A DNA stretch of 43,372 nt from a virus, in IMG/VR virus record IMGVR_UViG_3300037493_004247, positions 1-43,372 of that record; one strand, given 5' to 3'. Made by a program: the position numbers and the translations under genes. Under the pieces are notes generated by a model. It was not told where the DNA came from, did no database searches, and saw only the letters and a list, made by a program, of their open reading frames with translations. Positions 5,168-39,537 of the stretch are shown in pieces (position 1 is the stretch's first letter; every line of letters starts with the position of its first letter).

Positions 5168-8100
5168 ATGCCAACCATTGTCCAGATGCCGGATGGGGTC
5201 GAACTCGAATACCCGGACGGGATGAGCAATGCCGCCATGCTGTCGGCCACGCGCAAGTATCACGCCCAGCAGAAGGCTGAGATCAGCGCGGCTTACGACA
5301 CGGGGGTAAGACCCAGCGCCCTCGTCAGCAAGCAGGCGCAGGACATGATGCCGGATTCCATCCGGGCCACCATCGATAGGGCCACGCCCCCGGCGCTCCA
5401 GCAGAAGGTCACGCAGGACGCGCAGCGCGGGCTCGGGCCGGTGTATGAGCGCAACCGTCTCGAAGCCGCCCAGCAGGAGGCGAGGGATGAGGGCGCCAAC
5501 GCCGAGGCGGATGAGGAAGCGACTGATTTCATGGACCAGTTCGTGGTGCGACCCTTCGCGTCCACGGCCGAGAACCCGCTGGGTGGATTCGGCACGGCGG
5601 CAATGCCGCTGGGGGCACTGTTCAACGCGGCGGGAGAGGTGGCCGCGAATACGACGGATGACTTTCTCAACAACCGCCCCGCGCTGGACCGCTACATGTA
5701 TGGCGACCCGCTCCCGCAGACCAACAACGTGGTGAAGCAGGGGTTGTTGCAGGCGGCCCATGCGGTGCCGGTGATCGTGGGTGGCACGCTCTTGGCGTCG
5801 CAGGGCGTGCCTGCGCCGCTGGCCTTTGGCGCGCTGATGGGCGCTTCCACCTTCGCGGCCACAGAGGGCGACATCCCGCTGGCGCTGGAATCCGCTGCGC
5901 TGGGTGCCGTCATCCCTGGCGTGGGCGATGTGGGTCGCCACGTCGTCGTCGATGCGCTGGCGGGCGGCGTGCGTCGGGGTTCCTTGAGCGGTGGTCGGAC
6001 GATGGCGCATAAGGTGATGGAAGCCTTGGGGGCGCAGACGACCATTCAGGCGCTCATGGAGGGCATGAACTTGCCTGCCTATGTATCGGCGTCGGAGGGG
6101 GAGCGGACGGATATGTTCATCAGGAACATCATCGGCAACACGGCGCTGGCTGGCATGGAGGTGCCGGGACTCCTTAGCCGCCGCGCGAGCGGCACGCAGG
6201 GCAAGGTCGGGACGCATACGCTGGTAACCGCGCAGGCTGGCGAGGTGTTGATGGGTGTCCTCAACGACCCCGCCATGCTCAAGGAGATGCGCATCCGTGC
6301 CGATGACGCGGCCCGCTCTGCGCTGGACCCGAATGCTCTTCATGCGCGTCCCGGTCGCTTTCAGGAAATCATCAAACAGCCGCCTGAATTGCAGGAAGTC
6401 CCGGCAGAGCTGCGGGCATTTAAGGGCGCGATTGATGGGGATGTCGTGACCCCTGTGACCGAGCCCGAGCCGCCAGTGAAGGTGGCACCGGAGACACCTG
6501 TTCAGCCGAAGCAGTTCGAGGATCGTCTTTCTCCGACGGACTCCTTAGCTGTAATGACCGAGACAGCCACCCCTTCGAGTGCCGTCAGCAGGGTCTCCAA
6601 AATCATCAACGATGCTGGGAAAGAGGTTTACTCAATTACCTACACGCTCGATGGTGGTACATACCAGGGGTATTCCGACAATCCGATTTGGGAAGGTCAC
6701 CCCGGCTACTTGGGTGAATCCAAACATTACGCGAAAGAGTTTGCGGCAAAGCGCGCCAAGGCCAAGCCGCCCGAGCCCGGTGAATACGACCGGGAATCAC
6801 CCGAGGGACTGCTGGCGGTGGAAGCGATGCGTGACCACCTGACCACGCGGGGCTATGAGGCCAGCGAGGATGCAATTCAGTTAGCTGCCGAGTCTCACTG
6901 GCTGAATGGCAGGATTCTGGACCTCCGAAGTGAGAGGAAGCCCACCGAGGAATTGGTCAACCGGAGGAAGGAACTGGACCGGCAGGTTCACAAGATTCTG
7001 AACGAACTGAACCCGCCCGAGTTCGAGGTGGGGACCGAGATTGGGATGCGCAGCGGCTGGCCGGAAATGCCGACCCGTCGCGTGCGCATCACCTCGACCC
7101 ACTTCGATGAGATCAGCGGGCGGCAATACCGTTACGATTACATCGACGGGGGACCGGAGGTTCACCCGAAGTCTGTCCGAGCGGAGAAGCTCATCCGCGA
7201 TGGGGAGAGGGATTGGGCCACCGAGCTGCGGGCGGCAGAGGTGGCGGCGGGCGCTGCCAGTGGAAAGTTGCAGAGTCTTGGCCCGTGGAGCAGGCAGAAG
7301 AGCCAGTCGGCGCGCGCCGTATGGCAGAAGGCGAAACTGGACGCCGCCGACGCGGAGCGCAGTTGGCTGATGCTCAAATCTCAGCACGAGGCGTCCAAGA
7401 AGCCCGAACCCCCGAAGGGCGAAGGCAAGGATGCGAAGCAGTTTGGGGTGCGTGAGTTGCTCGATTACATGGAGGAACCGCGAGGCAACGCGTTCCCGGT
7501 GCCCGAGGGCGACGCCGATGCGTTCATCTCGGCTGCCGAGCGTGCGGGCTGGAAGCGTGACGGCGACGTGTGGCGCAAGGGTGGACGTGAGTTCTTCATC
7601 TTCTCGCAGGGCAAGCTGGCCGGGCCGATTGTGCAATGGTCGGCTCGGGAGACTACGGGCAAGGTCACGGATAACGAGCTGAAGGCGCGGGACATCGAAG
7701 CGAAGCTGAAGGATTACGAAGACACGCTGGCATCGGCGTCGCGCAGTCTGGAGGATGGCCGGTATGATAATGGGCAGCCGGTGTCTAAAGAGGGCAAGGC
7801 TCGGCTCAAGGAGGAGATCAAGGCGATGTCGTCCGTCACCGAAACCTTGCGTGACCAGTGGTGGCAAGCGTGGGTGGGCGAGACGCCGACGGCGTGGGAG
7901 GTCCAATGGATTCAAAACGGCCGCCGGGTCTTTGAAGGGCGCTATGGAACCAAGGACAAGGCTTACGCAGTGGCGGAGAAGAAGCAGGGCAGCGGCACCG
8001 TGGTAAAGTATGAGGTGGTCCCTTGGTTTGCCAAGAACCACCGGGAAGCCATTCACGCGGCCAAGGCCATGGATGAGGGCCGGGTCGAGGAGCTGGAGGG

Positions 8101-11100
8101 GAAGAACTACTGGCTGGACGAGAACAACCTGGTATATCAGCCGCCCAGCACGCAGGGCAGCCTGCCACGCAATCAATCGGAGGCTTCGCGCCGGTTTTCC
8201 ACGGCGGAACTTTCGGACATGGACGACGCGTTGCGGTTCACGCCTGACGTGCCGAAGGGGCAGCCCTTTCCCGATTGGCCCACCGACCGCAGGGAGCAGA
8301 TGGCTATCGAGGGCGCGGTGCGGGATGCGCTCAAACAGAAGGCGGGAGAAGGGGAACGGGTCTTCGAGGTGAAGGGGGCCAAGAACCGGGGGCCGTCGGC
8401 TCGCGTGGATGTGCGCCGCCTCTCCGATGGCCGCGCCCAGGTGCGCACCTCGCTGGATACCAACGAGGGCGGCTACTCCGGGCCGTTCATGACGTTTCCC
8501 AGCTTTGAGGCCGCGAAGGCGTACGGCTTGGCGGATGTGCGCAAGATGGCGGAGTCCATGCACCAGCGCAAAGACACCAAGAGTGTGCGGAAGGTGCTGG
8601 AGAATGTGCTCGCCGCGCTGGACAAGGCCGAGGCGAAAGCGCCAGCGCCTGAAGTGGGTTCTGCGGGCAAGGAGGAGATGCCGCGTGATTACAGCATCAC
8701 CTCCATTCGTGACACGTTTCAACTTTCCACCGAGCAGGCGACTGCCATCGATGCCCTCTTGAGTGCGGTCGGGTTGGATACCGGTCGTATCCGCTTCGGC
8801 GAAGAGGGAGTCTGGGCTTCGGATGATGCGCTCTTGCAGATGGAGAACATCCTTCTCGGGAGGGAGAAGGTGCCCCAGTTCGAGAAGATCGATGACGTCT
8901 TCAAGTTCGTCGATAAATACGGCAAGAAGCACCATGCGGTCCCCGCTGGGCTGGACTTGTCCACCAGCAAGGGCCGGTCGGCGGCGGTGGATGCCATCGT
9001 GAAACACACGGTCCTTGAGCTGGACGCGTGGAAGAAGGTCGTCAAGAACTACCGACCGTTCTACACGTCGGACATCATCGAGCGCACCAATCCCGCGCTG
9101 CAAAAGTGGGCGCAGGGGAAATTCGGCAGGAAGCTGACCACCGCCGAGGTGGACTACATTCACTTGCTGTCTTCGCTGGCGTCGGGCAGGACGATCCCCT
9201 CGGTGGACACCCAGTGGGGGATGCACCTCTTCGAGGAATACATCAGGACCGGGGAGGCTACGGGGCTGGCGGATAAGCGTCGTCAATTATACGGCTATCC
9301 TCCCGGCGTGACGGACTCGAACCAGAAGAAACCGCTCTTCATCGATGCCAAGACCGGGAAGGACACATTCAAGGGGGCAGGCAACAAGCCCAAGTATGAC
9401 CCTGACCCGAATGCGAAACCCAAGATCACCGCGACCTTCTACCTGTCGGGGTTGCAGAGGTTCAATGCCATCCTCGGTCACTTCGGCGGGGACTTGCCTA
9501 AGACCATCAAGTGGATGGGCACGCGGCATACCTTCGATGAGATTCGCGCCGTCATCGGCGACAAGGCAGCCAAGTCGCTGGAGGAGCATGAGAATCTGGA
9601 CAAGGGCGGGCTGACCTTTGGGACGTTTACCCTGGGCAACGACGCGAAGATGGGTTCCTACATCCTGAACCGCTGGCAGAAGCTCGGCACCATCACGAAG
9701 GACATGTGGGTGGCGAGGACGACGGCCCGCTGGTTCCGTGAGCCGAGCGAGAGCGGGAAGCCGTGGGCGCTCACCAAGGACGGAATCGTGAAGCGCAAGA
9801 TCCTCGATGAGGCGTGGGGGATCGTGGCTAAAAGGTTGGGGGTTGACCCGGCCAATATTCAGGAGATGATGTGGGATGCTGAGAAGCAAATCTACGGCAA
9901 GTTCGGCCCGTTCGGCGACGGTGCCTACACGTCGGACGCGAGGGAGCTGGAGACTTCGCGACGTGCGAACGATAACGCCCCGGCAGTGGGCGCAAAGGAT
10001 ACGGCGACTGCTGGAGTCGGTAAGTCCAAAAAGCTGAACCCGCTCTATCAGGGTGGTGGTGACGGCGGCAAGCCGAAGGGCTCCACCGAGTTTGGTGATG
10101 CAGGCGATGCTCTTCTGAGGGGGTTTGCTGACGCGGACATCTCCACCGCCCTCCATGAGGTCGGTCATGTCATTCGGCGGTTCCTCCTCGACCGGTCCAT
10201 CCTACCGGAGAACCGGCTGGGAATCACTGACGCGGACATCGCGACAACGGAGCAGTGGGCTGGGGCGAAGGATGGGGTCTGGACCCGGCCAGCGGAGGAG
10301 AAGTTCGCGCGCGGACTGGAGAACTACATGCGGACCGGCAAGGCGCCGAACCCTGGCATGGCTGGGCTCTTCGAGAAGTTCGCGGGCTGGCTGACGAACA
10401 TTTACAAGAAGCTGAAGGGGAGCGCGGTCGATGTGGAGGTCAGCCCCGCGATGCGCGAGGTGTTCGACCGTCTGCTCACGCGGACCGAGCGGCTCAAGCA
10501 GGGTGGACGGATGGATGGACAGGAACGCCCGACCTCGATGTCGGGACGTGATGCCACGCCGCCGGCCGAAGGGGAGCCTGACTTGGTGCTGCTGGGTTGC
10601 GGCAAGGAGAAGGTCGGGGGCACGGCCATGGTGCCTGCTGCGGACCTCTACATCGGACCTCTCTTCAAGGCCCGCCTCAAGTTTGCGGACGGGCAGAGTC
10701 GCCCGTGGATGATCCTCTCGGCGGCGCACGGTGTCGTGGAGCCGGGCAAGAAGCTGGCATCTTACGACGTGGAGATGAGCAAGTTGTCCCCGACGGCCAA
10801 GGAGGCTTGGCGGGACTCGGTGCGAGCCCGCGTGCTGGAATACTTCGATGGGCGCTCGTCTGCCATCGGGAAGACTATCGAGGTTCATGCCGGTGCCGAT
10901 TATGTGGCGCAGTTGGAGAAGGCGCTGACCGGGCTGGGTGTGACCGTGCTGCCGGTGTTCAAGGGCAAGGGCATCGGCGAGCAGTTGAGCGGGTATTCCA
11001 AGGGCGAGGCGAGGGCGAAGGCGCCAGCAGGCGGACCGGAGTCCACCGTCTCGCAAGCGTTGGCCGATGGGAAGATTGCGCCGTTCTGGGGAGCTGTGAC

Positions 11101-14100
11101 CGGTGACCGGCCGATGATTGTCGTCAAAATCGGCACTGGGCATCTGCCGTTTTACCGCTCGGCGATGGGCACGGGTGGCAACAAGAAGGCTGGCGAGTGG
11201 CAGCCGTTCTTCGGCGTCGGGAACAATGGCTGGCTGATCAAGGGCGATGGGCAGGACATCGCTGGCGGCTACGGCAGTCACGAAGTCAAGGCCACCCAGA
11301 AGTGGCTGAACGAGAATTTCAACTGGGAGCACGCCCGCGACTTGGACCTGGTTTACAACGCGCACCGCTCGCCGCTCAACGCCATAGGCAAACCGGGCAG
11401 CGTCTTTGCCGCGCTCAAGCAGCTCGTCGGCGAAGGTCAGTTTGAGGACCTGCGGCACGATACTGCGGGCAAGTCGCACGAGCACATCATGCGCGTGCTG
11501 GAGTCGGTCGGCATCCGTCCCGGTGCGGGGAAGCCGGGAAAGTCCACCGCTGGCAGCAGTTTGGCGGAGCAACTGGCGGCGGCAGAGGCTGACATGGTCC
11601 GGCTCGACACCGAGCTGGCGGCCGCGAGGGCGGAGGCGGATGAGGTCAAGGCGTCTGGAGCGGACTTTGCCGCCAACGTCAACCGTGAGGCTGTGGTCAA
11701 AGACCTGATGCGCCAGATCAAGGCGGCTTCCGACCGGCGCGCTGCTCTGGATGCCGACGTGGCGCTGGAAACGTGGAGGGCGTCTGTGCCGCGCACGGCG
11801 CCGCCGGATGGTGACCCGAAGGTCACCGCCAAAATCCTCAAGGTGCAGAAGAAGTTTCTGCTCGAGGCGACCGAGCAGGCGCTCGCGGAGGCGGGCGAGG
11901 ACATGGCGGACCGTCCGAAGCAGATCACTATCGAGGTGCCGGGCGACGGCACGTTCACCGTCCAGAACACAGAGAAGACCCTGGGCGCGTTCCATGCACT
12001 GGTGAAGGCACGGTTCTCTACCTCACCCAACGGCGACGGCGGCTCGGGCAACAAGAGCGTGGACGGCAAGCCGGTCCCCAAGCCCCCGAAGAAGGGGAAG
12101 GATGCGCTCAAGAACGTGATGGAGGTCGCTGGCACGTTCGTGGGCGAGGACGACGGGCGCCCGGTGCTGTGGAACTCGATGTCCAACGGCAGCGAGGTGG
12201 TTGCCACGGACGGGAGGATGATGATCCGCATCGACACGCCGCTGGCGCCCGGCACCCCAGACAACCCGGTGTATCACGATGCGAAGGGCAAGCCGGTCAC
12301 GCCGAAGTTCATCGCGGTGAAGTATCCTGATTACAAGCATGTGTGGCCGGTGGGTCCGACGCTGGCTCGCGGCGGCGTGGAGTTGGCGGACCTCTGGCAC
12401 ATCGTCCGACAGGCAAAGGTGTTCCGGGACTTGTCCGTGGACGCGGCTGACCGGGCCGGTGAGCGTATGCTGCTGGTGGTGAATCCAGACGGCTCGATGG
12501 GCGGAGCCATGAACATCGGCGAGGACTCGTTCAGTCACAACATCAGCGTGCAGTCCAAGCCGCTGGGGCATTTCAACCCGGACTACATTCAGGCCGCGCT
12601 GGAAGCGGCGGGCAAGCTGGGCGATACGAAGCTGGATATTTATGTCGGTGGCGAGGCTGGGCCGATTCTGATTCAGGGCAAGCAGTTCGGGATGGTCGCC
12701 ATGGCGTTGGGTAACGGCGTCGATTCGGTGGGTGCGACGAGCGTGTTGCGTGAGCGGTTGGCCGCGTTTGCGGAATCGGCAGGCAAGGCGGAGCATCCCC
12801 GGCTGACCTACGGCGATGCGCCAAACCGAGGCGCTGAGTCGGCGGGCAAGGGCAAGGGTAAGGGTAAGGGCAAGAAGGGCGCTGCGGCTTCACCGTGGGA
12901 GGGTTCTGGTGAGGGCGATCTGGGTGGAGGGCTGGGTGCCGGTCCGACGCCTGCCCCTGCGGATAATCCTCGGTTCTCGGCGTTTGATGCTCTCCCGATG
13001 GAGCTGCCGGAAGCGGTGCGATTCGCCCGCGAGATGCTCGATGGCAAGTATCCCAAGGTGCTCGAAATCATCAAAGCTCTGGGCGGGCGGGCGGCTGGGT
13101 TGTTCACCTACACGCAGGGTGAGGGTGGGAAGGGCGAGATCCACCTCAAGGCGGACCTCGTGCGGGACCACTTCAAGGAATTCTTCGATGGCACGGCGGA
13201 GGCGCGTTACAAGCAGGAGGCGGAGGATTACGCGCGCGCCACTGCGGAGCACGGCGAGGATTGGCGGGAGATCGCGAAGGAGCGGCTCACTTACCTGGTC
13301 AACGAGGCGCTGGAGAAGAAGAAGGCTGAGAACCCGGCGTGGGCGCTCAAAGTCATCTGGCACGAGATCGGTCACCTCGTGGACTGGCTGCCTGAACGCA
13401 TGATCCACGGACGTGGCAACCTCTTCGGGCGCATCGCGAGCCTGAAGGAATACTGGAAGACCACGCTACCCATTGACCCGTTGCGCCCCTCGGGAAAGCC
13501 ATTGTCTGCGGCGGACCGCACCAAGCTGTGGGCGGAGGCGGATAAGCAGATCCGTGATGAGATCGGCCCAATCTCCGAAATCGTCGAGACGATCATGGTC
13601 GAGGAACCGATCCTGCGACTCGTCGGTATCACGACGGAGGACGTCAAGAATCTGCTGGGCATGGATGCCCGCGAGAAGACGCCCGAGCTTTACCGGTGGT
13701 TTGCCGAGCAACCGGCGCAGGTGAAGAAGGACATTCTCAAGAAGGCGCTGCGCGGACTGCTCGATGAGCGGCTCAAGGCGATGGGCCGAATGGAACAGGT
13801 CGGCACGAAGACCACCCAGCGCACGGTGCGCAAGAAGCAGGGGCGCGAGCCTACGCAGGAGGAGGTCCGCGCCCGGTTCAAGCAGTTGTTCCGCGAGGAG
13901 ATGACGAAGCGCAATCTTGCCGATTACGAGACGCTGAAGGCGGAGCTGGAGCCCATGATCGCGTGGTGGCGTGGCACCGCGACGATGGAGCCCTACTTCA
14001 GGACTTCCATTGAGATGTATGCGGAGGCTTTCAGCGTGCTGATGAACAACCCGGCGGCGGTGGCCCAGCGGGCGCCGCTATACTACCGGCTCCTGTTCAA

Positions 14101-16624
14101 TCACATGGACGCCAAGCCTGCCGTGAAGCAGTTGTATCGAGAGATCCAAGACCAGGTCCGCCGTGGCAGTGTCATGGGTGAGCGGGTGGGCGCCCTCCGC
14201 GACATGTGGGCGGGCGATGATGCACGCTCGATGAAGCGGTGGCGCGATTCGTGGCGCACCTCGGCCCGCGACTTCTTCGACAACGTCTCCTATCAGATTG
14301 ATCGGCGCTTCGGTCCCATCTTTCGGGCGGCGAAGGGCTCGGCCCGCGAGGGGCGGGTGCGGGATGCGGTCGGCAACTTCCTCTACCGGGCGTCCGAGCA
14401 TGAGCTTTTCCTCAACCGCGTGAACCGTGACGTGAGCCGCCCGCTGGTGTCCGCGAACTTGGACTGGACCGATCTGGGTGAATACATGTTCCACCAGCGC
14501 ATCATCGCGGACCGGTTCGCGCTCTTTAACCCGCAGGGCTGGACCTCCAAGAACTCGCTGGAACGGCTGGCGGAGCTGCGCTCCCAGCTCGGCCCGGACC
14601 GGTGGCGGGTGCTTGAGAATGCGCAGCGGGAGTTTCGTCGGGTGTATGAGGCCGAGGTGCTCCCGGTGCTGCGCAAGGCGCGCATGTTCTCCCCTGAGAC
14701 GCAGAAGCTCATCGAAGACAAGGTGTGGTATGCGACTTTCGCGAGCACGCGGGGCGAGGTGAAGGAGGGTATCGAGCGGGTGCTGGAGGACTCCGTCGGG
14801 GCAGCGGTGGGCGCGCGCATTTACCGGCAGATCGGCAACCTCGGTGAAATCAAGCAACCGGCCACCGCGACGGTGCTCAAGGCGCTGAGTCTCATCTCCG
14901 CAGCGGAGCGGAATATCGCCCGGCGCGAGGTCGTGCAGATGTTGCTGGCGACGGACCCGTCGAGCATCATGCCCGCGAAGACGCGCTGGAACGGCAAGCG
15001 CATGGAGGTCGTCGAGCGGGAGACGGCCAAAGTGGGCACGGTGATCTTCATGCACGAGGGGAAGGCGAAAGGCTTTTACGTGCGCCGCAGTGTGAGTGAG
15101 TCGCTGAATTACGCCTCCCCCATCGAGAACAAGCTGCTCTCGGGCGTCGTGTCCGCGAACGGGTGGCTGAAGGGGCTCTACACCCAGCTCAACTACGGGT
15201 TTTGGCCGGTCAACTTTGCGATTGATACGGCGAGTTTCATGTTGAACATGCCGGGCGCGTTGTCGCCCGTGGGCTGGGCGCTGGCATTGCCGCGTGCGGT
15301 GCGGGCGGCTCACGCCTCGGTCAATGGGCGGGTCGCCAATGAGTATGCCGATGCGGCGCTCCGTCGGCGGATGCTGATCTCCAGGGCGGACCCTCGCGGC
15401 GTGTGGTCGAGCGTGGACAACGAGTTTGACCTCAAGGTGGCCTCGTACGGCATGGACCCGGCGGCGTGGGGCGCGCAAGCCAACAAGGTCGGGGCACTGG
15501 TCAAGCTCTGGAACCACTATCGCGAATTTGGATCGAAGATGGAGCGCGTGAATAAGATCGCGGGCATGATCTATCTCGACGAGCACCACCCGGCGATGCC
15601 TGAGTGGAAGAAGCGCGAGATCGTGCGCGAGCGGGCAGGCTCGCCGGATTTCCTCCAGCGCGGCGCGAGCAACGCGACCATTGACTTGCTGATGATGTTC
15701 TTCAACCCGTGGAAGGAGGGGATCAGGTCCACCATGAAAGCGGCGGGCGAGAACCCCTTCAGCTACGGCACAAAGTTCGCCGCTGCCGTGGTGCTGCCGT
15801 CTCTCCTTCAGGCGGCGGCAACGCAGGGGTTGCTGGGCGACGACCTGAAGCGGAAGTATCGCAGCATCCCCGACTACGACCTCTCGAACTATTACTGCGT
15901 GCCGCTGTTCTGGCAGGATGCGGAGGCGGGCAAGGTGGCTTACCTCCGCTTGCCGCTCCCCGAGCCGATGCGGATCGGGCATGCGCTGACCTACAAAGTG
16001 GCGACCGGTCGTGGTATGGGGTACGGGTCCTTCATGGGCGGCCAGGTGCCCGGCGCGAACTCGATGTATGGGGTGCTGGCGGCGTGGCACCAGTATGCGG
16101 TGATGGGTCACAACCCTTACGACAGCCATCGAGGGGCGTACGTGCTCGATGAGGCGACGTTCGAGGCGGGCGGCACCGCAGCGAATGTGGCGCTGGGCAA
16201 GTGGACGTGGAACCAACTGGGGGGCTCGATTCTGGGACGCTTTCAGAATACTGCGCTGGAGAATCCGCCCGCCTCGGCGGGCGAGGAATTCTTGGCGGCG
16301 CCCATCGTCAGCAATTCACTGGGCCGGTGGCTCAAGGTCAGCTCCCGAGGCATCGACGACGCAGACCGGCAACTGACGGAGCCGGTGCGCCAGCATCGCG
16401 CCGAGGTGCGGCTGGGCGTGCGGAAGATCATGCTAAAGCTGTTCGCTGATGCGGCACTGACACCCGCCGAGCGGGTGCTGATGCGCGAGCCTTACGCCAT
16501 GGAGTATCTGCTGCGCACGATGCCCGAGGTCGCGGCTGGCCGGGAGTTTCCGATCATGCGGAGGCTCGGGCACGCCGATTCCCGCGAGGGCAAGGCGGCG
16601 ATTCTGATGGGGAGTCCGCAGTAA
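5168..16624 (+). CDS. Giant polyvalent virion protein (3818 aa) with two HExxH metalloprotease motifs, a DUF6884-like and an LPD38-like region
   Basis: More than a quarter of the genome. Order: an N-terminal MPDGVELEYPDG segment of the kind that begins many ejected virion proteins; a hydrophobic Ala/Gly region at about 190-270; long charged linkers; a first zinc-protease motif HEVGH at 1663-1667 in the context often seen in polyvalent proteins; a DUF6884-like region at about 1804-1925 (LGCGKEK, then DLYIGPLF, then WMILSAAHGV); a module at about 1975-2110 with WQPFFGVGNNGWLIKG; a coiled coil at about 2133-2200; a possible sliding-clamp-like stretch from about 2310 (EVVATDGRM); a second metalloprotease HEIGH at 2732-2736 with a probable third ligand Glu2953 in YAEAFSVLMN; and an LPD38-like region at about 3510-3700 (FFNPWKEG, then VPLFW and RLPLPEPMRIG). 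Such proteins are typically packaged and injected to act early in the cell. Domain names are from memory of motifs, not from a search. No RNA polymerase motifs were seen. Confidence 0.75.
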   Translation: MPTIVQMPDGVELEYPDGMSNAAMLSATRKYHAQQKAEISAAYDTGVRPSALVSKQAQDMMPDSIRATIDRATPPALQQKVTQDAQRGLGPVYERNRLEAAQQEARDEGANAEADEEATDFMDQFVVRPFASTAENPLGGFGTAAMPLGALFNAAGEVAANTTDDFLNNRPALDRYMYGDPLPQTNNVVKQGLLQAAHAVPVIVGGTLLASQGVPAPLAFGALMGASTFAATEGDIPLALESAALGAVIPGVGDVGRHVVVDALAGGVRRGSLSGGRTMAHKVMEALGAQTTIQALMEGMNLPAYVSASEGERTDMFIRNIIGNTALAGMEVPGLLSRRASGTQGKVGTHTLVTAQAGEVLMGVLNDPAMLKEMRIRADDAARSALDPNALHARPGRFQEIIKQPPELQEVPAELRAFKGAIDGDVVTPVTEPEPPVKVAPETPVQPKQFEDRLSPTDSLAVMTETATPSSAVSRVSKIINDAGKEVYSITYTLDGGTYQGYSDNPIWEGHPGYLGESKHYAKEFAAKRAKAKPPEPGEYDRESPEGLLAVEAMRDHLTTRGYEASEDAIQLAAESHWLNGRILDLRSERKPTEELVNRRKELDRQVHKILNELNPPEFEVGTEIGMRSGWPEMPTRRVRITSTHFDEISGRQYRYDYIDGGPEVHPKSVRAEKLIRDGERDWATELRAAEVAAGAASGKLQSLGPWSRQKSQSARAVWQKAKLDAADAERSWLMLKSQHEASKKPEPPKGEGKDAKQFGVRELLDYMEEPRGNAFPVPEGDADAFISAAERAGWKRDGDVWRKGGREFFIFSQGKLAGPIVQWSARETTGKVTDNELKARDIEAKLKDYEDTLASASRSLEDGRYDNGQPVSKEGKARLKEEIKAMSSVTETLRDQWWQAWVGETPTAWEVQWIQNGRRVFEGRYGTKDKAYAVAEKKQGSGTVVKYEVVPWFAKNHREAIHAAKAMDEGRVEELEGKNYWLDENNLVYQPPSTQGSLPRNQSEASRRFSTAELSDMDDALRFTPDVPKGQPFPDWPTDRREQMAIEGAVRDALKQKAGEGERVFEVKGAKNRGPSARVDVRRLSDGRAQVRTSLDTNEGGYSGPFMTFPSFEAAKAYGLADVRKMAESMHQRKDTKSVRKVLENVLAALDKAEAKAPAPEVGSAGKEEMPRDYSITSIRDTFQLSTEQATAIDALLSAVGLDTGRIRFGEEGVWASDDALLQMENILLGREKVPQFEKIDDVFKFVDKYGKKHHAVPAGLDLSTSKGRSAAVDAIVKHTVLELDAWKKVVKNYRPFYTSDIIERTNPALQKWAQGKFGRKLTTAEVDYIHLLSSLASGRTIPSVDTQWGMHLFEEYIRTGEATGLADKRRQLYGYPPGVTDSNQKKPLFIDAKTGKDTFKGAGNKPKYDPDPNAKPKITATFYLSGLQRFNAILGHFGGDLPKTIKWMGTRHTFDEIRAVIGDKAAKSLEEHENLDKGGLTFGTFTLGNDAKMGSYILNRWQKLGTITKDMWVARTTARWFREPSESGKPWALTKDGIVKRKILDEAWGIVAKRLGVDPANIQEMMWDAEKQIYGKFGPFGDGAYTSDARELETSRRANDNAPAVGAKDTATAGVGKSKKLNPLYQGGGDGGKPKGSTEFGDAGDALLRGFADADISTALHEVGHVIRRFLLDRSILPENRLGITDADIATTEQWAGAKDGVWTRPAEEKFARGLENYMRTGKAPNPGMAGLFEKFAGWLTNIYKKLKGSAVDVEVSPAMREVFDRLLTRTERLKQGGRMDGQERPTSMSGRDATPPAEGEPDLVLLGCGKEKVGGTAMVPAADLYIGPLFKARLKFADGQSRPWMILSAAHGVVEPGKKLASYDVEMSKLSPTAKEAWRDSVRARVLEYFDGRSSAIGKTIEVHAGADYVAQLEKALTGLGVTVLPVFKGKGIGEQLSGYSKGEARAKAPAGGPESTVSQALADGKIAPFWGAVTGDRPMIVVKIGTGHLPFYRSAMGTGGNKKAGEWQPFFGVGNNGWLIKGDGQDIAGGYGSHEVKATQKWLNENFNWEHARDLDLVYNAHRSPLNAIGKPGSVFAALKQLVGEGQFEDLRHDTAGKSHEHIMRVLESVGIRPGAGKPGKSTAGSSLAEQLAAAEADMVRLDTELAAARAEADEVKASGADFAANVNREAVVKDLMRQIKAASDRRAALDADVALETWRASVPRTAPPDGDPKVTAKILKVQKKFLLEATEQALAEAGEDMADRPKQITIEVPGDGTFTVQNTEKTLGAFHALVKARFSTSPNGDGGSGNKSVDGKPVPKPPKKGKDALKNVMEVAGTFVGEDDGRPVLWNSMSNGSEVVATDGRMMIRIDTPLAPGTPDNPVYHDAKGKPVTPKFIAVKYPDYKHVWPVGPTLARGGVELADLWHIVRQAKVFRDLSVDAADRAGERMLLVVNPDGSMGGAMNIGEDSFSHNISVQSKPLGHFNPDYIQAALEAAGKLGDTKLDIYVGGEAGPILIQGKQFGMVAMALGNGVDSVGATSVLRERLAAFAESAGKAEHPRLTYGDAPNRGAESAGKGKGKGKGKKGAAASPWEGSGEGDLGGGLGAGPTPAPADNPRFSAFDALPMELPEAVRFAREMLDGKYPKVLEIIKALGGRAAGLFTYTQGEGGKGEIHLKADLVRDHFKEFFDGTAEARYKQEAEDYARATAEHGEDWREIAKERLTYLVNEALEKKKAENPAWALKVIWHEIGHLVDWLPERMIHGRGNLFGRIASLKEYWKTTLPIDPLRPSGKPLSAADRTKLWAEADKQIRDEIGPISEIVETIMVEEPILRLVGITTEDVKNLLGMDAREKTPELYRWFAEQPAQVKKDILKKALRGLLDERLKAMGRMEQVGTKTTQRTVRKKQGREPTQEEVRARFKQLFREEMTKRNLADYETLKAELEPMIAWWRGTATMEPYFRTSIEMYAEAFSVLMNNPAAVAQRAPLYYRLLFNHMDAKPAVKQLYREIQDQVRRGSVMGERVGALRDMWAGDDARSMKRWRDSWRTSARDFFDNVSYQIDRRFGPIFRAAKGSAREGRVRDAVGNFLYRASEHELFLNRVNRDVSRPLVSANLDWTDLGEYMFHQRIIADRFALFNPQGWTSKNSLERLAELRSQLGPDRWRVLENAQREFRRVYEAEVLPVLRKARMFSPETQKLIEDKVWYATFASTRGEVKEGIERVLEDSVGAAVGARIYRQIGNLGEIKQPATATVLKALSLISAAERNIARREVVQMLLATDPSSIMPAKTRWNGKRMEVVERETAKVGTVIFMHEGKAKGFYVRRSVSESLNYASPIENKLLSGVVSANGWLKGLYTQLNYGFWPVNFAIDTASFMLNMPGALSPVGWALALPRAVRAAHASVNGRVANEYADAALRRRMLISRADPRGVWSSVDNEFDLKVASYGMDPAAWGAQANKVGALVKLWNHYREFGSKMERVNKIAGMIYLDEHHPAMPEWKKREIVRERAGSPDFLQRGASNATIDLLMMFFNPWKEGIRSTMKAAGENPFSYGTKFAAAVVLPSLLQAAATQGLLGDDLKRKYRSIPDYDLSNYYCVPLFWQDAEAGKVAYLRLPLPEPMRIGHALTYKVATGRGMGYGSFMGGQVPGANSMYGVLAAWHQYAVMGHNPYDSHRGAYVLDEATFEAGGTAANVALGKWTWNQLGGSILGRFQNTALENPPASAGEEFLAAPIVSNSLGRWLKVSSRGIDDADRQLTEPVRQHRAEVRLGVRKIMLKLFADAALTPAERVLMREPYAMEYLLRTMPEVAAGREFPIMRRLGHADSREGKAAILMGSPQ

Positions 16625-16838: not shown

Positions 16839-16840
16839 TT

Positions 16841-16861
16841 GGCGGGCCTTTCGGGCCCGCC
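16841..16861. other. GC-rich hairpin at the end of the late operon
   Basis: A perfect 8-bp stem (GGCGGGCC / GGCCCGCC) with loop TTTCG starts two bases after the stop of the 70-aa gene. There is no T tract after it on either strand, so it is a weak candidate for an intrinsic terminator. It may instead stall transcription ahead of attP or be part of the attP architecture. Confidence 0.45.
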
Positions 16862-16863
16862 GC

Positions 16864-16927
16864 TCCTGACTCGAAATCAGACTCGGGAGCAATCCCGACG
16901 TGGGTTCAAATCCCACCCCTTCCGCCA
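16864..16927 (+). other. attP: attP core: 3' portion of a tRNA-Ser(CGA) gene
   Basis: The stretch reproduces a tRNA-Ser from the anticodon arm to the CCA end: stem CTGA / TCAG with loop CTCGAAA (anticodon CGA), a long variable arm CGGGA-GCAA-TCCCG, a T arm GTGGG-TTCAAAT-CCCAC, the 3' acceptor strand CCCTTCC, discriminator G, and encoded CCA. The matching 5' acceptor strand (GGAAGGG) and D arm are absent upstream, so it is not a working tRNA gene. A partial tRNA next to a tyrosine integrase is the classic phage attachment site. Integration would restore the 3' end of the host tRNA-Ser gene. The exact crossover within the block cannot be fixed without the host sequence. Confidence 0.85.
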
Positions 16928-17127: not shown

Positions 17128-18345
17128 ATGAAGCATCGGTTCAAGTATCAGGGACGGACTTACTCACTCTATAAGCGCGAGCAAACGCGGGAGGCGAGTT
17201 GGTGGCTCAAGGCGACCATCAGCGGCAAGTGCATCCGGCGAAGCCTCGAAACGAACAACGCGGCGAGCGCCGAGCTGCGGGCGGTGGCCCAGTTCATCGG
17301 CCCGGCGCAGCGCGGCAACTGGGCCGAGGTCGAGGTGGCCCGCCCGGCGGCGTCGGTGCTGACCATCGGTGCGCTGCTCGCGTCCTATACGGCGGCGAGC
17401 GTGGGGCTGACGGAGCCGATGACGGTGCGCAACAACCAGAACTCGTTCCGGTTGGTGGTCCGCCGGGGGATGGGTGACGACATGATGACGGTGGAGAAGC
17501 TGGAGTCGCTGGGCACCACGGTGCTGACGGCCCGCCTCGTCGGAGAATTTGAGGCGTGGATGGCTCGGCAGGCAGTCGCTCAAGGGCGGGACTTGGAATC
17601 AAACAAGCGTTCGGTGGCGGGTTACCTGCGGCAGGCTCGCAGCGTGTTCAGTAAGCAGATGATGCAGCACTACGTCGAACGCGGCACGGTCCTGCCCGAT
17701 GTCTCGCCGTTCATGCTGCGCACGACGGCGCGGGCCGCGAAGGTCCACCGTCAACCCGTGGGCGACGAGTTACTGGCGAAGACGTTCGCGGCGGCGCGCG
17801 CGTGGCGTGAGGTGGACCGTCCCGCATATATCGCGTGGATGCTCGGGCTGTGCTCGCTCCGTCGGGGTGAGATCGCGGAGATGCGCTGGGACTGGCTCCA
17901 GCAGCATCACGGGCGCTGGTCGATTCACGTCCCTGGCGCACTCGCCAAGTCTGGGGCGGGTCGGACGGTGCCGATTGATGGGCGGGTCGCGCCGGAACTG
18001 CTCGAGTTTCAGCTCGCTCGTCAGCTCGGTGTCGTTCCGACTGAGGAGTTGTTTGTGTTGCCCTCGCCCCGGCTGGGTCAGGGCGGGCCGAACTGCCGAC
18101 TGCGGGCGCAGTCCATCTTCCGGCGGGTCAACCTCTGGATGCGGTCGCAGGGCTGGACCACGAACCACACCCTCCACGAGATGCGGGCGCTCGGGCTCGG
18201 CTCGGTGCGCGATGCGCACGGGCTCGACATCGCTCAGGCTGTGGCCGGTCACTCCGACCAGCGAACGACGCAGCAGCATTACGTCGGTCAACGCTCTGTG
18301 GGGAGCGTCGAGCTGGTGTTGCCGTTCGCTCTGGGTCCGGGGTGA
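17128..18345 (+). CDS. int: Tyrosine-type site-specific integrase, 405 aa
   Basis: Catalyses recombination between attP and the bacterial site. The C-terminal catalytic domain shows the family residues: Arg245 in LCSLRRGEI, Lys274 in LAKSGAGRTVP, the H-x-x-R box His350/Arg353 (LHEMR), His375 in VAGHSDQ, and nucleophile Tyr385 in QHYVG. The N-terminal 60 residues (FKYQGRTYSLYKRE, then WWLKATISGKCIRRSLET) look like the arm-binding beta domain, followed by a helical core-binding domain at about 75-200. The length is normal. AGAGAG lies just before the ATG as a modest ribosome site. It stands 200 bp from the tRNA-derived core with arm-site candidates in between, and a hairpin with T residues follows its stop. 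Confidence 0.93.
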   Translation: MKHRFKYQGRTYSLYKREQTREASWWLKATISGKCIRRSLETNNAASAELRAVAQFIGPAQRGNWAEVEVARPAASVLTIGALLASYTAASVGLTEPMTVRNNQNSFRLVVRRGMGDDMMTVEKLESLGTTVLTARLVGEFEAWMARQAVAQGRDLESNKRSVAGYLRQARSVFSKQMMQHYVERGTVLPDVSPFMLRTTARAAKVHRQPVGDELLAKTFAAARAWREVDRPAYIAWMLGLCSLRRGEIAEMRWDWLQQHHGRWSIHVPGALAKSGAGRTVPIDGRVAPELLEFQLARQLGVVPTEELFVLPSPRLGQGGPNCRLRAQSIFRRVNLWMRSQGWTTNHTLHEMRALGLGSVRDAHGLDIAQAVAGHSDQRTTQQHYVGQRSVGSVELVLPFALGPG

Positions 18346-20697: not shown

Positions 20698-21642
20698 ATG
20701 TCCACCCCGCAACTCCCGCCCACGGCGGGCCCATCGCCCACCGAGCCCGAGCAGGTCGAGCACTTGCCAGCCACCGAGCCCGCGAGCGTGAGCGTGCAGG
20801 CACCCGATTACGCCCAGCGGCCGCTTTTTGACGACTCGCAGTATCCCGAAGGGCACGAGCTGGTCATGCCAGAGGTCGAGCAGCGGAAGAGGTTCACTGG
20901 CTCGGTCCTGGCGAGGAATCGGGAGCGATACCTGGAGGTGGTGCGTGCGCTGGGCCAGGGTCTGGGCCGCCGTCAGATCGCTCGAGCCTTCGGCATCTCA
21001 ACCCACACGGTTCAGGCCATCTTCGAGCGTGAGCCCGAGCTGGTAGCCACAGAGCGCCTGAAGACCGGGACGCAACTGCGGCGCGTGGTGCGGATGTCAC
21101 TCGACGCTTTGGAGGAAGCGTTGGCCGAGGGGAAGATTTCGGCCGGCCAGCTACCGGTTGCGACCGCTATCCTGCTCGACAAAAGCGCCGCTTGGGATGG
21201 TCAGCCTTCGCAGGTGATGGTCGTGCGGCACGAGCTGGACCAGAGCGCCGTGCTCCGCGCGTTCGCCGACCTCCGCTCCCGGCCAGCGACGCTGGAGGCC
21301 GAGTTGGTGCCCGCACCTGATTCTGAATCAGGTGACATCAGCCCGGTCCGCCAGCAAATCGGGGTCGTGCTGCCCGCTGTGCCATCCGTTGTGCCGGATC
21401 CGGCCGGCCGAGGCACTAGTAGTACCATCGACGGAGCCCATCCCGGATCCGGCCAGGGTCCGACCGAGCCGAGCGCCGAGCGGGCCGCGTCGGGCGCCGA
21501 GCGGGTCACGGGCGGCGAGCGGGTCACGTCGGGCGGTTCCGGCGAGACGGGGGGGGGGGGGGCGTCGTTTGCGCGCCCGGCCCCCACGATACATGGGTTC
21601 GCCGCCGGAAAATCTGAACTGAAAACGATTGAATCCCTATAA
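20698..21642 (+). CDS. Helix-turn-helix protein with repetitive Gly/Ser tail, 314 aa
   Basis: The first 60 residues are Pro/Glu rich. At about 85-115 (GLGRRQIARAFGISTHTVQAIFER) is a clear HTH of the resolvase or sigma-4 type. A helical region at about 120-190 may make oligomers. The tail is disordered, with imperfect repeats (AERAASG, AERVTGG, ERVTSGG) and a codon run inside 14 consecutive G residues at 21549. The place before replication genes suggests an early regulator; a terminase small subunit (HTH plus oligomer helices) is an alternative. Start ATG 20698 was preferred to the in-frame TTG at 20689. The stop overlaps the next start by one base (TAATG). Confidence 0.55.
   Translation: MSTPQLPPTAGPSPTEPEQVEHLPATEPASVSVQAPDYAQRPLFDDSQYPEGHELVMPEVEQRKRFTGSVLARNRERYLEVVRALGQGLGRRQIARAFGISTHTVQAIFEREPELVATERLKTGTQLRRVVRMSLDALEEALAEGKISAGQLPVATAILLDKSAAWDGQPSQVMVVRHELDQSAVLRAFADLRSRPATLEAELVPAPDSESGDISPVRQQIGVVLPAVPSVVPDPAGRGTSSTIDGAHPGSGQGPTEPSAERAASGAERVTGGERVTSGGSGETGGGGASFARPAPTIHGFAAGKSELKTIESL
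21549..21562 (+). repeat. Homopolymer run of 14 G inside the HTH gene
   Basis: Fourteen consecutive G residues encode part of Thr-Gly4-Ala near the C-terminus of the HTH protein. With this count the frame stays open to the TAA that touches the next start. A change of one or two G would alter the last 31 residues. Such runs mutate readily by slippage and are also hard to sequence. Confidence 0.9.
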
Positions 21643-35336: not shown

Positions 35337-35768
35337 ATGTCAGGACTTCATCCAACGGGCATTCAAAACTCTGGAGGTGTGGAGCCGTGTCCTGCTCCCT
35401 CCTCCACCTCTGGGTCCGCGCTTGCCGATTTGTCCCCGGCAGGCGCGGCCTTTAATATCATCGCCAGCAAGGCGAAGGAGACGAAGCCGGTGGACTTCCT
35501 GCAATGGTGGCGCGACGAGCTGCGCACGGGCGGGGAGCTGGCGGAGTATCTGCGCATCGAGAAGGCGCGCACCAAGGAGCGATACCGAGCTGTCGCCAAG
35601 AAGAATTGGGACTGGAAACAGAACAACCGTTCCGACATCCGCAAGGTGGCGGACATTCCGTTGAGGGATTACTTCCGGTGGCTCAAGGAAGACCCGGACT
35701 TCTTCGCGGACAACAAGAATTTGCGCTCACTGAGACGGGATAATCCCGACGTGTGCGTTTACATCTGA
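35337..35768 (+). CDS. Head/connector hypothetical protein, 143 aa
   Basis: N-terminal 40 residues Ser/Pro/Gly rich and flexible, then a charged helical region (QWWRDELRTGGELAEYLRIEKARTKERYRAVAKKNWDWKQ) and a basic C-terminus. Just before the tRNA-like gene and the adaptor. A small head-completion protein is plausible; no family is known to me. Its TGA ends two bases before the tRNA-like gene. Confidence 0.5.
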   Translation: MSGLHPTGIQNSGGVEPCPAPSSTSGSALADLSPAGAAFNIIASKAKETKPVDFLQWWRDELRTGGELAEYLRIEKARTKERYRAVAKKNWDWKQNNRSDIRKVADIPLRDYFRWLKEDPDFFADNKNLRSLRRDNPDVCVYI

Positions 35769-35769
35769 C

Positions 35770-35832
35770 GCTGTGGTTTGGTGCGTCCGCATGTTACGCG
35801 GATTGAGGGTCCGATTCCCTCTCGCAGCTCCA
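35770..35832 (+). tRNA. D-arm-less tRNA-Asn(GUU)-like gene, 63 nt with encoded CCA
   Basis: Acceptor GCTGTGG (35770-35776) pairs with TCGCAGC (35822-35828) through two G-U pairs. The anticodon stem TCCGC / GCGGA closes a seven-base loop ATGTTAC with anticodon GTT (Asn), T33 and A37. The T arm is GAGGG-TCCGATT-CCCTC. Discriminator T and CCA follow. Between acceptor and anticodon stem are only nine bases (TTTGGTGCG), where a normal D arm needs about 18, and the variable loop is two bases. The nine bases resemble the 3' half of a normal D loop, so the 5' D-stem half appears deleted. It exactly fills the 71-bp gap between two genes. It may be a degenerate gene or a working minimal tRNA. Confidence 0.65.
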
Positions 35833-35839
35833 ATTTACG

Positions 35840-37105
35840 ATGCGAACGGTCACTTACAAAGCGGTCGAGGAAAAGGCGAACGTGCTGTTCGCTGGCAAGG
35901 TCCGCCCCACGGCGGATGACGCGGCATCGCTGAACCGGCTGATCAACTCGCGGTATCGCGAGTTCTTCGAGCGGTTCTATTGGCCCGAGCTGATGCGGGT
36001 GGAGCGTCGCACGTTCCGCCCTCAATACTCGGGCGCCACGGTTTACGCGGCCAGCACGGCCACGGTGCCGGTGGAGGTCTTCTACTGGCCGACAACTTCC
36101 TACTATCAGTCGCTGCGCGCGAATCCGGTCACTCTCACCTCGTTGACGCGCTCCACGGTCACAGCTACGGCGACTTACGCCGCCGGGCACCAGTTGACGG
36201 TGGGCAGCCGTCCACGGGTGACCATCAGCGGCGTGACGCCCACGGGCTACAACGGGAGCTGGACGGTGACGGTGACGAGCGCCACGGTCTTCACCTACAC
36301 CATGCCGGCCGACCCGGCCGCGAGCGGCAGCGGGACGATGCTGGCGGGCATTCACCCGGCCGATGCGAGTGGTCAGGTGGTGCCGCAATACTGGGCGGTG
36401 AGCCTTGGGGAGTATTCCGGCGATGACTGGAATTCGACCACGGCTTACACCGCCAGCGGAGCCGCTGGCAACACGGTCTATCAGCCGCTGGATGGCGAGT
36501 ATTACCAGTGCATCCTGGCGCACACGAACCAGTCCCCGCCCAACGCGACCTACTGGGGCGTGCTCAACCCGTTTGAGCGGGACATCGACTTCGAGCCGGG
36601 TGCGACCAGCAACCAAGGCACCACGGCCACGACTATCGGCGAGGTGAATGGCGTGTGGTCTGCCAACCCGTGGATATCGGAGAACCCCTTCCCTATCCGC
36701 TACGACACGACGAGCGACGGGCTGGTGGTGCGCGGGCCGGATAATGTGGTGTGGGTGGAGTTCCGCCTGCGGCCCAATGACTTTACCGGCTCGACGTGGG
36801 CCAGTGGCAGCTTCGCCGTGGGGGACCAGGTGTATTACTCCGTGACCGGCGAATACTACGTGAACATCTCCCCCGCGACGACGCAGGTGCCGACCGACAC
36901 GACCAAGTGGACCAAGCTCGATTTCCCCTACGTGCTCAAGGATTGCGTGGCTCAGGCCGCGTATGCCGACCTGCTGAAGGTGACAGGCAAGACGAGCAAG
37001 TGGGGAAATGAATTGGGCGAAGCCATGCGGTTGCTCCAGCGCGAGTTCGACAAGATTGAGCGGCTCCAAGGTCAGACCACCAACCTCAACGTGCAGATCC
37101 GATAA
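35840..37105 (+). CDS. Tail adaptor/connector-like protein with CBM5/12-like modules, 421 aa
   Basis: The N-terminal 60 residues (VTYKAVEEKANVLFAGKVRPTADDAASLNRLINSRYREFFERFYWPEL) and the C-terminal helices (LKDCVAQAAYADLLKVTGKTSKWGNELGEAMRLLQREFDKIERLQ) look like a head-to-tail adaptor of short-tailed phages. Inserted are an Ig-like beta domain (about 95-167) and two repeats resembling carbohydrate-binding modules 5/12 (about 195-245 and 314-360: TAYTAS, VYQPLDGEYYQC, then VGDQVYYSVTGEYYVN). The modules may sit on the outside of the virion neck. The leader CCAATTTACG has no Shine-Dalgarno sequence and begins within the tRNA CCA. Confidence 0.6.
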   Translation: MRTVTYKAVEEKANVLFAGKVRPTADDAASLNRLINSRYREFFERFYWPELMRVERRTFRPQYSGATVYAASTATVPVEVFYWPTTSYYQSLRANPVTLTSLTRSTVTATATYAAGHQLTVGSRPRVTISGVTPTGYNGSWTVTVTSATVFTYTMPADPAASGSGTMLAGIHPADASGQVVPQYWAVSLGEYSGDDWNSTTAYTASGAAGNTVYQPLDGEYYQCILAHTNQSPPNATYWGVLNPFERDIDFEPGATSNQGTTATTIGEVNGVWSANPWISENPFPIRYDTTSDGLVVRGPDNVVWVEFRLRPNDFTGSTWASGSFAVGDQVYYSVTGEYYVNISPATTQVPTDTTKWTKLDFPYVLKDCVAQAAYADLLKVTGKTSKWGNELGEAMRLLQREFDKIERLQGQTTNLNVQIR

Positions 37106-37479: not shown

Positions 37480-38814
37480 ATGGCGAGCCATCTGGCATGT
37501 CTGGGCGCAGGTGGAGGCGCAGGTGGTGGCTTCATTCAGGGAGCCCCGGACAATGCCATTGCTCACGGCACTAATTACTCGAACTGGCTCATCGATGCGC
37601 TGGGCACCACGGTGGACTCGGCGGGCATTCACCTGCGCAACAACGGCACGATTGAGTTCGCTCGCATCAGCATCGCCGGGCTCGCGGCCAGCACGGACTA
37701 CTGGCTGAAGCTGACCATTTCCAGCAAGGGGGCGACTGCTGGCAACCTGCGGTTGCAGATCGCGGGCACGGACGGCTCCAACATCGCGTCGGTCAACGAG
37801 GTGGCGCTGAACTACGACTTCCCGACTGCCGTTCCGTTCACCAAGTATGTCCGGTTCAGGACGGACGCCTCGGCTGGGCCTCACCTGATGCCGTTCCGCA
37901 ACGCGGCGAGCGTGGACAACACGGACGCCAGCCTGCTGCATATCACGGAATGCACGGTTTACCCCATCCCGGCCCGAAGCGCGGCGAAGATTGCCATTCT
38001 CGGCGACCGTGAGTCTGGCTTCGTTCAGGCCCAATCGGATGCGGTGGATGTGGCTTTGCTGTCAGCGGCGGCGGACACGGTGAACCTTGTTTCCCCCGGT
38101 GACCTGTCAGACGGACTTCCTACCTATGCGAATTCCGTCGATGTCACGCCGAACTTCCTCAAGACGACCATCGTCGGGCGTGGTGGGAATATCTATCCCG
38201 CTGCTGGTAACTGGGACTATTCCGGCGGCATCGCGGCATGGGAAACCTACTTTGGCATCACGGCCGGGCAATCGAATCGCTACCGGAAGGTCGCTCTCGG
38301 TCAGTGCGACTTCTTCTTCTATGACTCCAATGCGGCCAACACCGACAACAGTCAGGTGGACGTGGCGAGCGCCAAGGCTGCCGTGATGGGGCAGTGGTTG
38401 CTGACGCAGCTCGCTGCCTCGACGGCCCGGTGGAAGATCGTAGTGGTGCATCACCCGATGTATTCGTCCTCGACGCATCACTTGGGACCATCGAACACGG
38501 CGGGCTGGAGCGCAGCGTTCAAGTCCATGCAGTGGGACTGGGCCGCGCTGGGCGTCTCGTTTGTCCTCAACTCTCACGACCATGTGAACGAGGCGATGCT
38601 GGTGAACGGCACCATGCACCTCTGCTATGCGATGGGCGGCGGCACGGCGCAGGCGTTCGGGACGCTGATCCCGGAGTCTGTCTATGCCGAGAACCCTTCC
38701 ACGAGCGGCTTCGTGAAGCTCCACGACAGCACGAACGACCTGGTCATCGAGATGTTCAGCACGGGCACGCCGATTCCTCAGTTGAAGTGGCGCTGGAAAA
38801 TCACCCGTTACTAG
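37480..38814 (+). CDS. Tail-associated calcineurin/purple-acid-phosphatase-like protein with altered metal site, 444 aa
   Basis: The N-terminal 165 residues are a beta sandwich; the enzyme-like domain follows. Metallophosphatase signatures are present but changed: LGDRE (Asp176, Glu178) where Asp-x-His is usual, GDLSD (Asp208, Asp211), GNWD (Asn244, Trp245, Asp246) where GNH(D/E) is usual, VVHHPMYSS (His324/His325), and SHDH (His366, His368) in place of GHxH. The substrate could be teichoic-like or other surface phosphate polymers, if it is still active at all. It begins MASHLACLGAGGG, nearly the same start as the next gene. Set in the fibre region, it is probably a virion enzyme. Confidence 0.65.
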   Translation: MASHLACLGAGGGAGGGFIQGAPDNAIAHGTNYSNWLIDALGTTVDSAGIHLRNNGTIEFARISIAGLAASTDYWLKLTISSKGATAGNLRLQIAGTDGSNIASVNEVALNYDFPTAVPFTKYVRFRTDASAGPHLMPFRNAASVDNTDASLLHITECTVYPIPARSAAKIAILGDRESGFVQAQSDAVDVALLSAAADTVNLVSPGDLSDGLPTYANSVDVTPNFLKTTIVGRGGNIYPAAGNWDYSGGIAAWETYFGITAGQSNRYRKVALGQCDFFFYDSNAANTDNSQVDVASAKAAVMGQWLLTQLAASTARWKIVVVHHPMYSSSTHHLGPSNTAGWSAAFKSMQWDWAALGVSFVLNSHDHVNEAMLVNGTMHLCYAMGGGTAQAFGTLIPESVYAENPSTSGFVKLHDSTNDLVIEMFSTGTPIPQLKWRWKITRY

Positions 38815-39537
38815 ATGCCATCACACCTTGCATCACTCGGTTGCGGCGGAGCGGGATTCACTCCCGCCTCCATCGCCGACCTCGCGGGGTGGTATCGCGC
38901 GGATGCGCTGGCGTTGGCTAATAACGCCCCGGTGGCGAGCTGGGCGGACGGCTCGGGCACGGGCAACCTGCTCTCGCAGGGCACGGGTGTCAGCCAGCCC
39001 TTGTTCAAGACGAATATCGTTAACGGCAAGCCGGTGGTGCGGTTCGATGGCGCGAATGACTGGCTGGAGTATGCCGGGGCACCGGGCGGCTTTGGGGCGC
39101 AGACCGGGCAGACCATCTTTCTCGTGGCGCAGTATGCGGTGGATACGGACCTCCTCACGGCCGTCACCACGAATCCCGGCTTCAATGCGCTTCAGGTGTT
39201 CTTCGGCGGTGGGAATCCTCGCTTTCAGGGCAGCATGGGTGCCGCCATCGCCACTGTGACGGGTGCCATCAAGGCAGTGGGCGTGTGGCATTCCACCGTC
39301 CTGCGCTTCGATGACATCACGGACGGGCTGGAATGTTTCACGAACGGCGTGTTTCAGACGAACAACTTCGAGGCGGGGGCGTTCGCTACGAACACGATCA
39401 CACTGGGCCGACGGAGTGCCGTTGCCGGGCTCTACTTCGCGGGCGACATTGCCGAGGTCGGCATCTACTCCCGCTCGCTCACGTCGCCAGAGCTGACCCG
39501 GCTGCACGCCTATCTCGCGGGAAAATATAACCTGTGA
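38815..39537 (+). CDS. LamG/concanavalin-like lectin domain protein, 240 aa
   Basis: ATG directly follows the previous stop. After the tag-like start MPSHLASLGCGGAG comes a jelly-roll pattern: LAGWYRADALALANNAPVASWADGSG, PVVRFDGANDWLEYAG, VWHSTVLRFDD, and GDIAEVGIYSRSLTSPELTRLHAYLAGKY at the end, the classic LamG outline. A role in glycan recognition or virion decoration is inferred. The shared N-terminus with the upstream gene suggests that both attach to the same virion part. Confidence 0.7.
   Translation: MPSHLASLGCGGAGFTPASIADLAGWYRADALALANNAPVASWADGSGTGNLLSQGTGVSQPLFKTNIVNGKPVVRFDGANDWLEYAGAPGGFGAQTGQTIFLVAQYAVDTDLLTAVTTNPGFNALQVFFGGGNPRFQGSMGAAIATVTGAIKAVGVWHSTVLRFDDITDGLECFTNGVFQTNNFEAGAFATNTITLGRRSAVAGLYFAGDIAEVGIYSRSLTSPELTRLHAYLAGKYNL

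Follow-up and report, generated by a model that had tools for sequence, protein, structure and literature searches.

A 63-nucleotide element with the acceptor, anticodon and T arms of a tRNA but without a D arm lies between two late genes of a tailed phage, in a virus record (IMG/VR IMGVR_UViG_3300037493_004247) that was analysed over its whole length of 43,372 nucleotides, here called the window. The element is real, very unusual for a phage and probably not a working asparagine tRNA. There is about an even chance that it is a tRNA-derived gene without a D stem which is kept as, or has recently ceased to be, a folded tRNA-like RNA rather than an adaptor for asparagine. Sequence alone does not separate a working adaptor from a fresh pseudogene; we lean towards a retained tRNA-like fold over fresh decay and place little weight on a working asparagine adaptor. 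The element is composed of the following parts, all on the plus strand of the window.

35770-35832, plus: the D-arm-less tRNA-like element, 63 nt, recognised by its sequence, its fold, a strict structural scan and an independent D-less covariance model
35770-35776, plus: 5' strand of the acceptor stem (GCUGUGG), 7/7 pairs with 35822-35828, two of them G-U
35777-35785, plus: linker of nine bases, UUUGGUGCG, standing where the D arm would be, read from the sequence
35786-35802, plus: anticodon arm, with stem strands UCCGC and GCGGA (5/5 pairs) around the loop AUGUUAC; GUU triplet, U33 and A37 present, A32 and C38 unusual
35803-35804, plus: variable loop of two bases (UU), read from the sequence
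35805-35821, plus: T arm, with stem strands GAGGG and CCCUC (5/5 pairs) around the loop UCCGAUU, in which C55 replaces U55
35822-35832, plus: 3' strand of the acceptor stem (UCGCAGC), discriminator U73 and encoded CCA, from the sequence and from discriminator statistics

All 17 pairs of the three stems are formed at these positions, which agrees with the clean pairing described in an earlier note on this DNA, and the encoded CCA, the nine bases standing for the D arm and the two-base variable loop that it reported are likewise found in the sequence. The acceptor and T stems together make a 12-bp helix with the CCA, to which the anticodon hairpin is added. Compared with canonical bacterial and phage tRNAs, the element has the 7-bp acceptor stem, the T and anticodon arms of 5 bp each and U33, and it lacks the D arm and a variable loop of at least 4-5 bases. 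Aligned with tRNA-Asp, the UGGU of the linker resembles a relic of the D-loop. The minimum free energy structure given by RNAfold is the D-less cloverleaf (-24.3 kcal/mol), although with a z-score of -1.95 the folding energy on its own is only suggestive.

A strict structural scan for the acceptor, anticodon and T arms together with the T-loop motif returned a single match in the window, the element itself, and none in 60 Markov-shuffled windows, showing that this combination of arms and motif is not due to chance. A covariance model of D-less tRNAs, built from 22 other phage tRNAs whose D arms had been cut out and with the element left out of training, scored the element at 42 bits (E 6e-9), the next best match in the window reaching 17.9 bits. 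The element was missed by ARAGORN in its bacterial and metazoan-mitochondrial modes, by Rfam at the gathering cut-off and by the Rfam tRNA model at E<=10. The structure-aware search allowing missing arms that the earlier note had proposed was successful with the covariance model and failed with the mitochondrial mode of ARAGORN: standard tRNA finders overlook the D-less class, while a simple D-less model picks up the element. Elsewhere in the window, positions 21293-21353 gave weak matches to the D-less model on both strands (16.8 and 9.2 bits); this region is probably a palindromic stretch.

Searches of IMG/VR with exact and degenerate DNA patterns returned no D-less relative with a GUU anticodon; one of these searches yielded 103 stretches, of which 80 were checked by pairing and the remainder by the covariance model. 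The D-less model was also run on about 100 whole virus records and on 1.3 Mb of loci; the retrieved loci carry about 850 tRNA genes. No other phage tRNA of D-less shape was found in the roughly 100 virus records. When short matches that overlap normal-sized tRNA genes are set aside, the strongest of which were checked, the only strong full-length matches of D-less size are the element and a pair of tmRNA-derived 63-mers in two phage contigs (L080 and L082). A match in the locus L089 was rejected as a second D-less tRNA, being read by ARAGORN as a canonical tRNA-Lys. We know of no bacterial or phage D-less tRNA, and a search of the open-access literature found none from either source. D-less tRNAs have been described from metazoan mitochondria, and bacterial tRNA genes were reviewed in 2014 as structurally uniform (PMC4033280).

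The genes next to the element, and the putative attachment site and integrase of the phage, are located as follows.

35337-35768, plus: upstream late gene, 143 aa, with its TGA at 35766-35768, one base before the element
35840-37105, plus: downstream late gene of the tail region, 421 aa, with its ATG at 35840, seven bases past the CCA
16840-16927, plus: 3' half of a tRNA-Ser(CGA), putative attP, directly upstream of the integrase
17128-18345, plus: tyrosine integrase, adjoining the tRNA-Ser(CGA) 3' half

The gap between the TGA and the ATG measures 71 bases and is filled by the element, so that its intergenic position was described correctly; the neighbouring genes are both intact and conserved. 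For the element itself, neither a promoter nor a processing site was found. The window also encodes an SU10-type major capsid protein, a DnaG-type primase and a helicase. The tRNA-Ser(CGA) 3' half is likely to be the attP. As a partial tRNA adjoins the integrase, and as the relative G001 has the identical 28-base end (16064-16091, minus strand) beside an integrase that is 55% identical, the phage is most likely temperate. A search for host and kin gave no close phage record and one weak match among genome contigs. Among the other genes, one open frame of 3818 aa (5168-16624, plus strand) accounts for over a quarter of the phage genome, with segments that match PHROG families mostly without assigned function, and two tail-region proteins (37480-38814 and 38815-39537, both plus strand) show a metallophosphoesterase domain and a LamG/concanavalin-like domain.

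The same slot is occupied differently in relatives. Two of these (L002 and L003), with a capsid protein 79% identical to that of the window phage, carry a normal tRNA-Met(CAU) in exactly the same gap; L004 matches L003 in the slot region. For the comparison with related phages that the earlier note proposed, no homologue of the element itself was found, the slot of these relatives holding an unrelated tRNA. Three initiator-like tRNA-Met genes were found.

L002:3491-3566: initiator-like tRNA-Met in the slot, with a U1-U72 mismatch and a changed anticodon stem
L003:10091-10165: initiator-like tRNA-Met in the slot, with a U1-U72 mismatch, A11-U24 and a changed anticodon stem
L167:1501-1572: initiator-like tRNA-Met near an integrase, with a U1-U72 mismatch, A11-U24 and a changed anticodon stem

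Judging by these bases, the slot tRNA-Met of L002 and L003 looks like an initiator. Its presence in the same gap implies that the slot is a site for tRNA cargo. Between L002 and L003 there are two double compensatory changes (11-24 from GC to AU and 29-41 from UA to GC), which implies present or past structural selection on the tRNAs of this slot; one new G-U and one new mismatch (28-42) are also seen. In the tRNA-Met of L003 a D-loop G and C56 are lost and the stems mostly hold, so the elbow contact formed by these bases has been abandoned at least once in a relative. Descent of the element itself from these tRNA-Met genes is unsupported, as they rank about 360th and 442nd by alignment among the 697 distinct phage tRNAs, taken from the loci retrieved, that served as the comparison set. 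More distant relatives have a gap without a tRNA (12 bases in L005, about 11 in L006 and about 5 in L008). The tree of the three tRNA-bearing lineages has a support of 39, at which a single gain with later replacement and independent gains are indistinguishable. With its stem closed, the element leaves 1+4+7=12 bases from stop to start, the same as the empty site of L005; this match is only a hint and may be chance, because L002 and L003 give about 18-20.

The label tRNA-Asn proposed in the earlier note fits the anticodon GUU only, and U73, A32, C38 and C55 do not agree with it. For bacterial AsnRS the main identity elements are G73 and the anticodon. G73 is present in 20/20 phage tRNA-Asn and 20/20 tRNA-Asp with encoded CCA, and since the element has U73 its charging with asparagine is doubtful. 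The anticodon loop of all 29 phage tRNA-Asn is CUGUUAA; C38 occurs in 17 of 23 tRNA-Asp and in none of the 29 tRNA-Asn. The T-loop starts with UUC in 577 of the 697 phage tRNAs and with UCC, as in the element, in two. When the D region is excised from the collection, the two best alignments and four of the best ten are to tRNA-Asp(GUC), which makes up about 3% of it. It is the anticodon and T arms of the element that are closest to tRNA-Asp(GUC), with one tRNA-Asp having an identical anticodon stem and an arm that differs at two bases only (C32 and C36). The acceptor stem and U73 resemble a tRNA-Thr instead, so that ancestry from tRNA-Asp is a leaning and not proof. The name tRNA-Asn is unsuitable for the element without a charging test.

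A retained tRNA-like fold would have arisen from a tRNA gene that a temperate tailed phage carried as cargo within its late operon, and that lost the two D-stem strands and some of the variable loop. The element would be transcribed together with the late genes. RNase P and the 3'-processing enzymes mainly read the acceptor/T half of a tRNA, and because this half is intact, cleavage by RNase P and 3' processing should still be feasible. The wrong discriminator, the abnormal anticodon loop and the missing elbow would leave no ordinary role as an asparagine adaptor. What is kept, if anything, would be a compact fold of tRNA type by which the gap from stop to start is closed; alternatively, the fold may mark where the late mRNA is processed, or it may be a decoy for proteins that bind or cut tRNAs.

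It is quite possible, if short of probable, that the element is instead a recent pseudogene, made by deletion of the D stem and about three variable-loop bases from a cargo tRNA whose remainder has not yet decayed. This would fit a singleton with odd bases at 32, 38, 55 and 73 for which the tRNA-Asp alignment requires three separate deletions, in a slot that the relative L005 leaves without a tRNA. Decay is harder to reconcile with 17 intact pairs and an intact CCA, and with the fact that the D stem and the variable-loop bases that partner it are lost jointly, as in adapted D-less tRNAs. Of the usually conserved unpaired bases, 3/14 are changed in the element, and in a rough, unconstrained drift simulation matched to this number all 17 pairs survive in about 1%, on the premise that the odd bases arose after loss of function; if they were inherited from an odd parent tRNA, the estimate would be void. 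A working minimal tRNA for AAC/AAU, possibly resistant to host tRNA nucleases, is improbable. It would make use of a GUU with U33 and A37, of the stems and the CCA, in a phage in which Asn accounts for 3.6% of codons and AAC for 76% of Asn codons, and there are known phage tRNAs whose anticodon-loop changes are predicted to let them escape nucleases (PMC10264068). Against such a tRNA stand U73 in place of the G73 of all comparable phage tRNA-Asn, the A32/C38 pair of positions and the absence of the D arm and elbow. It would also lack any bacterial or phage precedent that is known to us or was found in the open-access literature. The D-less tRNAs of mitochondria are accompanied by adapted partners (PMC4033280, PMC12221289).

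That the element is no tRNA gene but the remnant of an attachment site or a piece of a tmRNA is very improbable. The attP of this phage does hold a partial tRNA and tmRNA-derived 63-mers do occur in other phages, but the element has both acceptor strands and lies 19 kb from the integrase and attP, aligns to the 63-mers no better than to many tRNAs, and has no Rfam tmRNA match even at E<=10. A reading of the element as the attP was rejected, since the attP was found at 16.8-16.9 kb. An assembly or sequencing error that deleted the D arm of a normal tRNA is extremely improbable; the element comes from a single metagenomic contig without a second copy, but the error would have had to delete bases in register at several separate places in the D arm and variable loop, and the two flanking genes are intact and conserved.

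The tRNA-like domain of tmRNA shares with the element the missing D stem, the intact acceptor and T arms and the CCA. By contrast, the element is without the GGUUUCGAC motif and has a seven-base loop of anticodon type, U3-A70 in place of G3-U70 and U73 in place of A73, and it gave no match to RF00023 at E<=10. The tmRNA-like RNAs of 63 nt in the two phage contigs (L080:13880-13942, plus strand; L082:395-457, minus strand) match the two ends of tmRNA (E 1e-16 and 3e-16 to RF00023, falling just short of the gathering score); a short hairpin without a reading frame stands where the entire mRNA-like part would be. They keep G3-U70, A73, GGUUUCGACG and CCA and are almost identical to each other in surroundings that are partly rearranged; such a frame-less mini-tmRNA could possibly be a decoy for trans-translation or an Ala acceptor. 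Homology between the element and these 63-mers is not supported, as 13 ordinary tRNAs with the D region excised give alignments that are equally good or better.

The D-arm-less tRNAs of metazoan mitochondria, such as nematode mt-tRNA-Ser, resemble the element in their acceptor, anticodon and T arms, their short linker replacing the D arm and their length of about 60 nt. The element differs in its bacterial T arm and T-loop motif, its regular 12-bp top half, its encoded CCA and its place in a phage genome. With phage cargo tRNAs, including those predicted to evade nucleases (PMC10264068), it has in common that it is a tRNA-derived gene between phage genes, syntenic with the tRNA-Met of relatives, whereas the missing D arm, the two-base variable loop and U73, A32, C38 and C55 set it apart. 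Phages with tRNA-dependent lysogeny (PMC10865867) are similar to the window phage in being temperate, in having a tyrosine integrase located at a tRNA gene and in carrying a further tRNA gene. In this case, however, the attP is a tRNA-Ser(CGA) and the cargo element reads GUU, so the element cannot complement the target.

Tentatively, and with the likelihood lying on the other side, the element may be a functional D-less tRNA-like RNA of a phage, selected as a processed decoy, as punctuation of the mRNA or as a minimal adaptor; it would then be the first such RNA with bacterial T-arm features from outside animal mitochondria. A phage example with its stems intact would make it possible to test how much of a tRNA is needed by RNase P, CCA enzymes, EF-Tu and ribosomes of bacteria. 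A D-less example from a phage also bears on the question of why phage cargo tRNAs are kept.
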